From contig VGIC01000019.1 of the NCBI GenBank assembly GCA_016867975.1, positions 1 to 40,326 of the forward strand: a stretch of 40,326 bases of DNA, read 5' to 3'. The translations under genes were made by a program, and so were the position numbers. This DNA is from Betaproteobacteria bacterium. Its GTDB lineage: Bacteria; Pseudomonadota; Gammaproteobacteria; Burkholderiales; Methylophilaceae. Below the pieces are notes generated by a model. That model made no database searches and was not told the origin of the DNA. It was given only the letters and a program-made list of their open reading frames with translations. Shown here piece by piece: positions 2,974 through 30,308 of the stretch; positions within the stretch are counted from its first letter, which is position 1, and every line of letters begins with the position of its first letter.

Positions 2974-3071
2974 CAGAGGCTTTCTAAAGTAATAATTTTA
3001 TGCACCATTCTAACATGCGCTATCATAACGCCTTAACTTGAGAACCGCCGATTAAATGCGGCAAGCTACAA

Positions 3072-3212
3072 GAGACCTTTGCACGGATAGGCGAACGCAG
3101 TGAAGACAAGGCAAAAATTGACAAAAAACCGGAGTTTACATGGGGTAAATGAGGATTTTGAGTCAATTTTTAACACCGTATTCACAAGTGCAGGCATTCG
3201 TGCAAAGGCCTC
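3072..3212. mobile_element. MITE-like element, 141 bp, with inverted ends and flanking duplication
   Basis: The left end GAGACCTTTGCACG (3072-3085) is the inverse of the right end (3199-3212) with one mismatch. The element is flanked by perfect 5-bp direct repeats TACAA (3067-3071 and 3213-3217), as expected for a transposed segment. Inside is a further perfect inverted pair, AAAAATTGAC and GTCAATTTTT. There is no reading frame for a transposase. The ends resemble those of IS5-family elements (ends of the type GAGACCTTTGCA), so mobilisation by such an IS is likely but inferred. It lies between the 5' end of dgkA and the start of yggX, with its right end only 21 bp before the yggX ATG. Confidence 0.8.
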
Positions 3213-3233
3213 TACAAATAATAAAGGGCAATC

Positions 3234-3506
3234 ATGGCACACACAGTCAACTGCATCAAATTAGGTAAAGAAGCTGAAGGTATGGATTTTCCTCCCTATC
3301 CAGGCGAGCTCGGAAAACGCATTTACATGAACGTCTCAAAAGAGGCTTGGGGCACGTGGCTCAAACAACAGACCATGCTGGTGAATGAGAATCGCCTGAG
3401 TTTGGCCGACCCCTCAGCGCGCAAATATTTGGCCGAACAAACTGAAAAATATTTCTTCGGCAGTGGTGCCGACATTGCCAGCGGCTACATTCCGCCAAAG
3501 AACTGA
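3234..3506 (+). CDS. yggX: Fe(II)-trafficking / oxidative damage protection protein YggX
   Basis: The 90-residue cytoplasmic protein matches the YggX family over its full length: [23 protein letters not shown] at the N-terminus with the single conserved Cys at position 7, the W-containing helix ([16 protein letters not shown]), and the C-terminal EKYFFG segment. Family members help protect or repair iron-sulfur clusters and move ferrous iron. The start is the ATG at 3234 behind AAAGGG. The right end of a MITE-like element lies 21 bp upstream, so transcription signals for this gene are probably inside or beyond that element. It is probably monocistronic; no clear T-tailed terminator follows. 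Confidence 0.95.
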
Positions 3507-3560: not shown

Positions 3561-3615
3561 CACTTCGCTCATCGCAATGATGGCGCTCAACTGCGCACCA
3601 TTCATTCATGTCGCT

Positions 3616-3960
3616 AGGGCGCTTCTACAAATGCAAAGTTTGAGATACAGCATTACCCGTGAAGGGCATGTCCGTGGAATATATGCGCTGAAGCGCATTA
3701 TTCACACGCCAAAGGCGCACACCCGCACGGGGCGTCCCCAACCTTACTAGATGCTGAAGCATCAAGTCGGTTGTGACGGAACGCAGAAACCGAGAAAACT
3801 TTAGTTTCAGTGAAGACTTACCTTTAGGTTAGTCGGAGCTATAGTATGCGTTATACAGCGAGGTTACGAGTACAGCGCAACGCTGTAATGCACTCAAGTG
3901 GTTTAAGCAGGCAATCAGAGAAGCTGATGCTCGCAAAAAATGTATTTATAGAAGTGCCCT
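3616..3960 (-). repeat. Hairpin-mosaic repeat element, copy A (345 bp, terminal inverted repeats)
   Basis: The ends at 3616-3635 and 3941-3960 are 20-bp inverted repeats with 17 matches. The interior holds successive small stem-loops: 3683-3698 (6-bp stem, TGAA loop), 3707-3717 (AAA loop), 3750-3763 (5-bp, TGAA), 3871-3887 (7-bp, CAA) and 3914-3928 (5-bp). Positions 3664-3799 match 30080-30215 on the opposite strand with 6 differences in 136. On the minus strand a 45-codon frame (3762 down to 3625) is open in both copies, with no ribosome binding site. The element starts at the base after the rpiA stop codon. It fills most of the gap between yggX and rpiA. No transposase is present. Confidence 0.8.
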
Positions 3961-4620
3961 CTATTTTTTGTAAGTTTTTACACCCTCAGCAGTTGCCAGC
4001 AACAAAACATTCGCTGGACGGGCTGCGAACAGACCGTTCGTCACCACGCCCACGATCTGGTTGATCTTAGCTTCCATCGCCACAGGATCAGTAATCGTCA
4101 GGCCATGGACATCCAGAATCACATTGCCGTTATCTGTCGTAAAATCACGCAATTTCGGCTGACCACCCAACTTCACCAGCTCACGCGCTACTTGGCTTTT
4201 CGCCATGGGTAGCACCTCTACTGGCAATGGGAATTTGCCCAGAACAGGGACATACTTACTTGCATCGCAGATGCAAATAAACTGTTTTGCCACCGCAGCC
4301 ACGATTTTCTCACGTGTCAAAGCACCGCCACCGCCTTTGAGCATATGCATGTGCTCGGTAATCTCATCGGCACCATCCACATAGATGTCTAGGCTATCTA
4401 CAGTGTTGAGGTCAAACACTTCAATGCCATGACCGCGCAAGCGTGATGCGGTCGCCTCAGAGCTTGCTACGGCCCCATCAATCTTATGTTTCACCTTCGC
4501 CAGCTCTTCTATGAAGAAGTTGGCTGTCGATCCCGTGCCAACACCAATAATGCCGCTTTTAACATATTCAACCGCAGCCTTCGCAACCTGTTGCTTTAAT
4601 TCGTCTTGTGTGTATGCCAT
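3961..4620 (-). CDS. rpiA: Ribose-5-phosphate isomerase A
   Basis: The 219-residue cytosolic enzyme interconverts ribose 5-phosphate and ribulose 5-phosphate in the pentose phosphate pathway. In methylotrophs this feeds the ribulose monophosphate cycle. The family motifs are all present: [13 protein letters not shown] (phosphate binding, near 28-40), DGADEI (near 82-87) and [11 protein letters not shown] (near 95-105). Its length equals that of E. coli RpiA. The start is the ATG at 4620 with AAGGA upstream. It is divergent from ilvA with 95 bp between starts. Its TAG stop codon abuts the terminal inverted repeat of copy A of the hairpin-mosaic element. Confidence 0.96.
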
Positions 4621-6381: not shown

Positions 6382-6438
6382 GCAGGCAATCAGCGAAGCT
6401 GATGCTCGCGAAAAATGTATTTATAGAAGTGCCCTTTA
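6382..6438 (+). repeat. Solo end of the hairpin-mosaic repeat
   Basis: This 57-bp stretch matches 3907-3963 (the right end of copy A) at 54 positions. It includes the terminal repeat ending in GAAGTGCCCT and an internal stem-loop ATCAGC-GAA-GCTGAT that is perfect here but has one unpaired position in copy A. No partner left end is visible upstream. It ends about 25 bp before the ATG of the beta-propeller lipoprotein gene, inside its 5' leader or promoter. Confidence 0.75.
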
Positions 6439-28558: not shown

Positions 28559-29837
28559 AAAATCTCAACAATTGATTCCTGGGGGTGTCAATTCCCCTGT
28601 GCGTGCGTTCCGCAGTGTGGGGGGTACGCCCATTTTCTTCAAAAAAGGGTCTGGTTCAAAGTTATGGGATGTAGATGGTAAAGAATATATCGACTACATC
28701 AATTCTTGGGGTCCGATGATTGTAGGGCATGCGCATCCTGAAGTCACTCAAGCGGTGCAAGAGGTGGTGGCGAATAGCCTTTCTTTTGGTGCGCCAACTG
28801 GCTTGGAGTTGGAGATGGCAGTGCTTATTAATAAGCTTGTCCCCAGCATGGAGCAGGTGCGTTTAGTGAGTAGCGGCACGGAGGCGACCATGAGCGCCAT
28901 TCGTGTAGCGCGTGGTTTTACCGGGCGCAATAAGCTAGTGAAGTTTGAAGGGTGTTACCACGGACATTCCGATGCGCTGCTAGTCAAAGCGGGTTCCGGT
29001 CTGCTGACTTTTGGTAAAAGCAATGAGCTGGGGGTCCCAAGTTCTGCGGGTGTTCCAGCGGAAGTGGCCGCTCACACTTTGACGCTAGAGTACAACAACA
29101 CGCAGCAATTAAAAGACATGTTCTCAAAAATCGGCGACGAAATCGCCTGTGTGATTCTGGAACCGGTGGTAGGCAACATGAACTTAATCGTGCCGCATCC
29201 TGAATTTTTACAAACTCTACGTGAGCTCTGTACGCAGCATGGTGCAGTGTTGGTTTTTGATGAGGTGATGACGGGCTTCCGCGTAGCGCTGGGTGGCGCA
29301 CAAGCGTTGTACAACATCAAGCCTGATATGACAACGTTGGGTAAGGTGATTGGTGGGGGGCTTCCCGTAGGGGCATTCGGTGGGCGTAAGGATATCATGC
29401 AGCGCCTTGCGCCGTTGGGGCCAGTGTATCAGGCAGGCACGCTGTCGGGAAATCCTGTTGCGGTCACAGCGGGTTTGGCTACTTTGAAATTGATTCAGGC
29501 ACCGGACTTTCATGCAAAACTTGCCGCACAAACCAAGAAGCTGGTGGATGGTCTGATTGCGGCAGCTAAAGAAGCGGGTGTGGTATTTAGTGCGCAAAGT
29601 GTTGGAGGAATGTTTGGACTATACTTCAGTGAGAAATGTCCAACGAGCTTTGCAGAAGTAATGCTATCCAATAAGGAAAATTTCAATAAATTCTTCCATC
29701 TGATGTTAGATGCAGGAGTTTATTTTGGTCCATCGGCATTTGAAGCAGGTTTTGTTTCTGCTGCCCACAGTGATGCAGACATTACTTTTACGTTGGAAGT
29801 AGCCAGGAAAGCATTTTCTGCATTGGCAAAAAATTAA
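28530..29837 (+). CDS. hemL: Glutamate-1-semialdehyde 2,1-aminomutase
   Basis: The 435-residue PLP enzyme converts glutamate-1-semialdehyde to 5-aminolevulinate in the C5 route to heme. The N-terminal [20 protein letters not shown] is diagnostic, and the PLP lysine is K272 in [17 protein letters not shown]. The ATG at 28530 lies inside the end of thiE (29-base overlap), and the encoded N-terminus matches the family length (E. coli 426). The TAA stop codon directly abuts the inverted terminal repeat of element copy B. Its presence with hemE suggests ALA is made from glutamyl-tRNA, as in most betaproteobacteria. Confidence 0.97.
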
Positions 29838-30264
29838 AGGCCACTTCTTAAATACTTTTTAAATACTTTCTTGAGCGCATTACTGCGTTACGCGGTTTTC
29901 TGGTTACGGCATAACCTTAAGGTTATGCTTACACCGCAACTTCGTTGTGCGAGCTTTGAGCTACGCTCAAATGCCTGCCAAAAACAAATTCTCAACCTCG
30001 CTGTATACTGCATACTATGGCTTCGGCCGCTACGCTTAACATCGCTTCGCGAGTTAGTCTACGCCGAAACACTGCGTTGGTTTTCTCGGTTTCTGCGTTC
30101 CGTCACAACCGACTTAATGCTTCAGCATCTAGCGAGGTTGGGGACGCCCCGTGTGGGTGTGCGCCTTTGGCGTGTGAATAATGCGCTTCAGCGTATATAT
30201 CCCACGGACATGCCCTTTACGGGCAGTGCCGCGTCTCAAGCTCTGCGTTTATAGAATGCACCCT
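29838..30264 (+). repeat. Hairpin-mosaic repeat element, copy B (427 bp)
   Basis: The ends AGGCCACTTCTTAAATACTT (29838-29857) and the inverse of AGGGTGCATTCTATAAACGCA (30244-30264) match the terminal repeats of copy A, in opposite overall orientation. The interior contains a perfect 20-bp palindrome (29909-29928), TTTGAGC/GCTCAAA with a 3-base loop, and the 136-bp core shared with copy A (30080-30215). A 128-codon frame (29871-30254, TTG start) spans most of it. Its last 45 codons from the ATG at 30117 stay open in copy A, but there is no ribosome binding site. The base pair AA flanks both ends, a possible 2-bp duplication. Confidence 0.8.
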
Positions 30265-30308
30265 AAAGCACACTTTATTAAAAAACTTTGTCTTTAGTGG
30301 CTACCTTG

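Follow-up and report, generated by a model that had tools for sequence, protein, structure and literature searches.

What is the chain of small hairpins that separates two genes in the genome of a methanol-eating bacterium, and how did it come about? The chain lies in a 40,326-bp stretch of DNA (here referred to as the window), and an earlier note made from its letters had proposed either a structured RNA or an element that grows by inverted duplication. The origin and movement of the smallest bacterial repeats, the REPs and the MITEs, are largely open. We report that the repeat combines known kinds, i.e. a MITE and a REP-like mobile hairpin, and that its point of interest is a self-nesting module defined by its structure. 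The MITE of this host has been enlarged by several smaller hairpin elements.

Position, ends and fold of the element

The 20-bp inverted ends described in the earlier note (17 of 20 positions matching, 3616-3635 against 3941-3960) were confirmed, and with the same spacing none of the other positions exceeded 13 of 20 matches (39,981 window positions tested). The outermost base at either end is flanking sequence, and the element proper therefore spans 3617-3959 (copy A; Table 1). It is situated between two convergent genes, one at 3234-3506 on the plus strand that we take to be yggX (product, oxidative damage protection protein) and rpiA (3961-4620, minus strand), and no ORF of at least 80 aa overlapping 3617-3959 was found.

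The note had also listed at least five chained stem-loops. Perfect stems of at least 5 bp with loops of 3-5 nt have four centres (loops TGAA, TGAA, CAA and AGAAG) compared to a mean of 0.92 over 1000 dinucleotide shuffles, four being reached by 15 of these; the row of hairpins exceeds chance. The hairpin with the AAA loop has a stem of only 4 bp and falls outside this count. The predicted fold of 3610-3966 has an energy of -126.8 kcal/mol (z = -6.35).

The yggX-rpiA spacer is 454 bp here, or 107 bp after subtraction of 343 and 4 bp. It is 78-104 bp in the sisters G027, G020 and G015 and approximately 700-1000 bp in most of the other sisters listed; the spacers do not align, and the short ones are only suggestive of an empty site. 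At 3067-3214, 400 bp to the left of the element, lies another MITE-like repeat, whose ends are of the GAGACCTTTGCAC type; it matches two further places in the genome, at 96% and 88% identity.

Table 1 Coordinates of copy A, its parts and related copies in the window
Feature	Position	Strand	Remarks
Whole element, copy A	3617..3959	+	343-bp MITE; from repeat matches and backbone alignment
Left target-site duplication	3613..3616	.	GCTA; 3/4 match with right TCTA
Right target-site duplication	3960..3963	.	TCTA; overlaps rpiA stop codon (3961-3963)
Left terminal inverted repeat	3617..3635	+	family consensus GGGCACTTCTATAAATRCA
Right terminal inverted repeat	3941..3959	-	
Insert M	3654..3711	+	58-nt two-hairpin module; model match 3654-3716
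Insert N	3719..3775	+	57-nt two-hairpin module; model match 3719-3781
Insert K	3795..3840	+	46-nt hairpin insert, backbone position 63
Insert X	3895..3933	+	39-nt hairpin insert, backbone position 117
Largest unbroken backbone piece	3841..3894	+	
Remaining backbone pieces	3617-3646, 3650-3656, 3712-3718, 3776-3794, 3934-3959		
Truncated copy	6382..6434	+	insert X and right end only
Copy B	29839..30263	-	425-bp member; exact 4-bp duplication TTTA (30264-30267 / 29835-29838)
Module N in copy B	30098..30160	-	covariance model match
Module M in copy B	30163..30226	-	covariance model match
End sequences of the MITE repeats			GGGCACTTCTATAAAT and GAGACCTTTGCAAAAGTGCTT, the latter being shell B

Copies and spread of the MITE

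BLAST searches with the 3617-3959 element returned 65 pieces in its own genome. Pieces were present in 33 of the 61 genomes searched. These comprise its own genome, 30 of 36 same-genus relatives and, among 24 genomes outside the genus, only G051, which belongs to a different family of the same order, and G060. An end with at most one mismatch occurs in 16 of 200 genomes of the order, again including its own. The blastn check suggested in the earlier note hence speaks for a mobile family, with copies elsewhere and conserved ends.

Pairing of ends across loci, with length limits of 90-450 bp, gave 105 distinct elements that span 108-394 bp with a length peak at 141-143 bp. The 4 bp on the two sides are identical for 52 of the 105 copies, where 5.1 would be expected from mixed flanks, while 26 copies match at three of four positions and 27 at two or fewer; copy A's own duplication is of the three-of-four kind and not exact. 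For the control lengths of 3 and 5 bp the corresponding numbers were 9 (8.8 expected) and 0 (0.4 expected). The target is A+T-rich (ATAA, TAAA, TTTA and TTAT among others). Bare backbones of 142-143 bp occur in the same genus, and short forms with the same ends (110-187 bp) in Sideroxydans, Nitrosomonadaceae, Comamonadaceae, Thiobacillus and Thiohalomonas; in G051, of 14 distinct short elements with lengths of 128-190 bp, 12 are flanked by an exact 4-bp duplication. Moreover, for the 26 complete shell-A copies of the own genome (the pair at C7:23876 left out), the joined flanks fall within an ORF of at least 100 aa in four cases compared to 51 of 104 nearby control positions, and the copies are thus mostly intergenic.

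The element at 3617-3959 is a dispersed non-coding terminal-inverted-repeat element, a MITE: it is short and non-coding, its ends are conserved between copies and the family duplicates its target. An autonomous partner with the same ends was not treated as a required feature. In line with the earlier note, which had seen no transposase that explains the element, no convincing transposase-bearing element with these ends was detected among end pairs spanning at most 4 kb in the loci examined. In L031-L059, L076-L243 and four stretches of G109 the search extended to pairs of 3.5-4 kb, and in L244-L279 to pairs of 450 bp. An autonomous IS with end A was rejected, the searched pairs being short MITEs or chance pairs only, and a 1.9-kb pair in L232 that was considered as such an IS consists of two MITEs round one gene, whose predicted product looks like a sugar dehydrogenase. 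A phage or plasmid origin was also rejected, with zero matches of narrow queries in phages, plasmids and viral contigs. In G109, which has 41 end matches, loci L387 and L389 hold a 134-bp MITE with GGGCACTTCTATAAAC ends, and its two complete copies contain no transposase.

Hairpin inserts in the 143-bp backbone

Aligned over its full length with the 143-bp backbone consensus, copy A matches at 133 of 143 positions, and the remainder forms four blocks, the inserts M, N, K and X (for M, the alignment separates 3 nt at 3647-3649 from the other 55 nt, which it puts at 3657-3711). These differ mutually in sequence, and in the backbone alignment each is present or absent independently across the other copies. 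Specifically, L310 has M alone, L022 has N together with 48 nt at backbone positions 92-94, L015 and L016 have N and a 66-nt block at backbone position 63, and L315, L316, L199, L086 and L088 have zero inserts; several more diverged copies did not resolve cleanly. The inserts are whole-unit insertions at fixed sites, two of which, 36 and 117, are part of a paired stem when the backbone is folded. X-like hairpins are also present in the 141-bp-type MITEs of G051. In L164 (Sideroxydans) and L193 we observed MITE inserts that resemble the 46/48-nt block and have a TAACCTTTAGGTTA-like core; such inserts in the MITEs of other groups suggest that another small hairpin may likewise move over a wide range.

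A family of two-hairpin modules

The recognised module types (M, N, P, Q, R, S, T, U and V) have a common layout of approximately 60 nt consisting of hairpin 1, a linker, hairpin 2 with a small bulge, and a tail. The hairpin-1 loop (GTAAA-like), linker (TCNCC-like), hairpin-2 loop (TNAA-like) and tail (GYGAAA-like) are constant, and the stems vary by compensating pairs. A GTRG or GCAG tetranucleotide precedes hairpin 2 in M types; N, P, Q, R, S, T, U and V do not have it. At the module junctions there is no clear duplication, and the exact ends are ambiguous by a few bases.

Among 32 distinct units 89.8% of the cells are paired, compared to 61.8% when shuffled and 26-38% when slid, with two-sided changes at 14 of 16 pairs; these figures are inflated as the units were chosen by a regex and a fold-energy filter. 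The less biased set, 46 distinct 32-mers selected by sequence pattern alone, has 31 two-sided, 10 one-sided and 23 broken cells, where its shuffles give a mean of 7.9 two-sided (maximum 15 in 500) and 54 broken (minimum 46). Compensating changes, which the earlier note had suggested looking for, are therefore present, and they reside in the module inserts. Such covariation could result from selection acting on the folded form, or from a repair process in which one arm of a hairpin serves as template for the other.

Tested on 21 hand-picked sources (92 kb), a covariance model built on M units alone detects units of types S, P, N, U and R at E-values from 6e-14 to 0.005; in 48 hand-picked background loci (364 kb; 41 titled outside Methylotenera and 7 others) it gave zero matches at E ≤ 1. 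The same model misses Q and T, reaches V only at E = 0.067 and some N and U units only at 0.02-0.3, and gives 0.32 for the N unit of the window. Rfam returned no match for the element nor, even at E ≤ 1, for the module.

Distribution and nesting of the modules

Using a general covariance model (E ≤ 0.01) we identified 548 modules in 38 of 41 same-genus genomes, own included, each of these having 1-53; outside the genus, matches were weaker (best E-value 1.2e-7) and were seen in 7 of 79 genomes of the order, at 1-5 per genome. For the own genome the placement listing holds 52 modules (53 in the genus-wide count). Complete shell-A MITEs contain 26 of them and complete shell-B MITEs 9, and the other 17 lie in partial copies or at other places. 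The two modules of copy B, which was delimited by eye and is not among the end pairs of this listing, are counted with these 17, as the divergence of its ends kept it from being detected. Shell B, with GAGACCTTTGCAAAAGTGCTT ends, is flanked by an exact 5-bp duplication in four of seven cases (CTTAG, CTTCA, TGATG or AGAAA), an uncontrolled count. Shells A and B have the interior core and the modules in common and differ in their ends, which suggests that cores or ends have probably been exchanged. In L033, L034, L038 and L328 the same interior core was observed between GGAAGCGCTGATTAAAT-like and CGGAATAAG-like inverted ends, and its presence between at least two further kinds of ends suggests exchange of MITE ends.

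Modules are found in two MITE families, as solitary units, in other palindromes and in one another's loops, and in other genomes also within further shells and CATTCC-type palindromes. Nested modules occupy hairpin-1 loops as well as hairpin-2 tips of their hosts: L090, L343 and L053 are cases of a module in another's tip, and the hairpin-1 loop of M takes up three different types (R, P and Q) at the identical point. L124 and L125 each have occupied as well as unoccupied copies of the recipient hairpin. The recipient test started from 85 model matches in 70 hand-picked loci, which were reduced to 67 (7 duplicates and 11 weak, partial or overlapping matches left out), to 61 of the same genus and to 48 after merging similar flanks. 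Flanking stems score at least 6 for 8 of these 48 recipients where 1.6 would be expected (maximum 5 in 200 permutations). Loop insertion by modules is real, yet by this measure concerns a minority of sites; as a general rule it was rejected, given the 8 of 48 recipients and the paired-stem location of sites 36 and 117.

Y1 transposase genes and the modules

Thirty PF01797 loci (88 kb) contain five modules while approximately 0.5 would be expected from the density of 548 modules in ~94 Mb, and 29 rpiA loci (99 kb), used as control, hold zero. The modules belong to four of the 30 Y1 loci, i.e. one each in L120 (weak), L122 and L124, and one on both sides in L125; an earlier BLAST with 19 own-genome elements gave Y1-locus matches only in L122-L124. 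Across genomes, all 17 same-genus genomes without a PF01797 match carry modules, the three module-less same-genus genomes all have such a match, and the sole match in the own genome contains a stop. Because of the module excess near Y1 genes, the Y1 transposase (RAYT) is kept as a candidate mover despite the lack of a cross-genome association.

In L125 (G020) the Y1 match is contained in a 147-aa ORF at 1345-1788, with modules ~40 bp away on one side and 30 bp on the other, in opposite orientations. Each is within the loop of a GTAG-type hairpin having a GTCGG...CCGAC core and GTAGGTCGG or CCGACCTAC outside, and empty copies of the same hairpins are present in the locus. Modules inside ordinary GTAG hairpins may favour REP loops, or travel with REPs. 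The Y1 ORF of L125 and its two bracketing hairpins are located at 1232-1890; the Y1 genes of L128 and L129 have GTAG hairpins that are module-free.

Discussion

The repeat is probably a two-layer MITE, that is a backbone with target duplication that later received discrete hairpin inserts. Layer 1 is the non-coding backbone of 141-143 bp with inverted ends of ~19 bp, which duplicates 4 bp of an A+T-rich target. By analogy with other MITEs, its mover may have been a DDE transposase that acted in trans and has since been lost or escapes recognition. In layer 2, hairpin elements of 39-66 bp entered this backbone at fixed sites, and copy A reached 343 bp by acquiring four, two of which belong to the ~60-nt two-hairpin family with compensating stems. 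At a minority of sites the modules have entered loops, those of fellow modules as well as those of further palindromes, which makes the elements grow as nested hairpins. With IS200/IS605- or REP-type elements as precedent, the module would most likely be recognised as a folded single strand and insert without target duplication, and the Y1 (REP-associated) transposase would be the first candidate for its mover. The inserts would probably have spread by exchange between homologous cores of MITEs with different ends. We also put forward, tentatively, a wider idea: that a mobile element of ~60 nt, whose identity is its folded shape (two hairpins with fixed loops, linker and tail) and not the sequence of its stems, exists throughout the genus and inserts into hairpin loops, those of REPs as well as its own, to give self-nesting trees that are carried by MITEs.

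A mosaic could also arise if each insert entered the backbone once and recombination or gene conversion between MITE cores did the rest, with no active hairpin element. The identical placement of M and N in shells A and B would fit such a history, as would own-genome copies that are alike enough to recombine; we nevertheless regard it as unlikely given that modules are also located outside the cores (solitary, in other palindromes and nested) and that R, P and Q types share one hairpin-1 loop. The structured RNA proposed in the earlier note does not describe the whole repeat, which behaves as a MITE, and is retained for the inserted module as an improbable alternative, i.e. that it was selected for an RNA function, e.g. 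as 3' untranslated hairpins. The compensating stem changes, the constant loops, linker and tail, and the intergenic location of the MITE copies are in keeping with this, while the absence of an Rfam match even at E ≤ 1 and the modules being present or absent from copy to copy and nested in other repeats argue against it; moreover, a folded DNA substrate or arm-copying repair predicts the same covariation. The other proposal of the note, growth by inverted duplication, would account for several short perfect stems in series but is hardly credible, being contradicted by discrete inserts set against bare 142-143 bp copies: the inserts are mutually unlike, and since each is missing as a whole unit elsewhere we reject it.

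The two-layer MITE illustrates that serial insertion can yield hairpin strings that resemble designed RNA. With hundreds of units in one genus, and with nested, filled and empty sites, it becomes possible to test how sites are chosen, how far structure matters and which enzyme is missing.

Comparison with known systems

Searches of an open-access library returned no paper that, judged by its title, deals with repeats of Methylotenera, the putative genus of the host. The backbone is like the bacterial MITEs Correia/NEMIS, ERIC and RUP as these are described in PMC2229807, i.e. short, non-coding and mostly intergenic with inverted ends and a target duplication. For the Correia elements two sizes are given there, ~107 bp and ~155 bp, the longer one with an internal sequence of 50 bp (PMC2229807). 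Unlike Correia/NEMIS, ERIC and RUP, the present repeat has several independent inserts, two of which are from a covarying hairpin family that also occurs in other MITEs and alone; its duplication is of 4 bp, and its ends could be tied to no named family. The Tn3-derived TIMEs are similar as non-autonomous inverted-repeat elements giving mosaics (PMC4133298). These TIMEs have Tn3 ends and a 5-bp duplication and are not known to contain hairpin modules.

Compared to IS200/IS605-type elements, which have subterminal hairpins and do not duplicate their target, the module consists of two hairpins, its junctions are without clear duplication and its exact ends are ambiguous. The double-hairpin elements of Allomyces mitochondria reportedly consist of two tandem hairpins. 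According to work cited in PMC2800124 these hairpin elements lack flanking duplication, and like the yeast GC clusters they are small hairpins thought to be mobile (PMC2800124), as the modules may be; unlike the modules both are mitochondrial, and the likeness is by description only.

The modules share with REPs of the GTAG and CGTC superfamilies, as outlined in PMC3733652, small palindromes with variable stems and a constant tag, and in L125 they occupy GTAG-type hairpin loops on both sides of a Y1 gene. They differ from REP dimers in having two different hairpins in tandem, in a ~60-nt unit that is not an inverted dimer, and from REPs in that 26 of 30 Y1 loci are module-free. The copy number of REPs is stated to be usually >100 per genome (PMC2817692), that of modules being 0-53. 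With respect to the GTAG/GTGG tetranucleotide that REPs have at the foot of an imperfect palindrome, the tetranucleotide in front of hairpin 2 of M types is GTRG or GCAG, and the other types are without it. Finally, REP dimers or elements within palindromes are reported for A. variabilis, T. roseum and H. neapolitanus (PMC3733652), and REPs inside palindromes in these three species are the nearest bacterial precedent for a hairpin within a hairpin.
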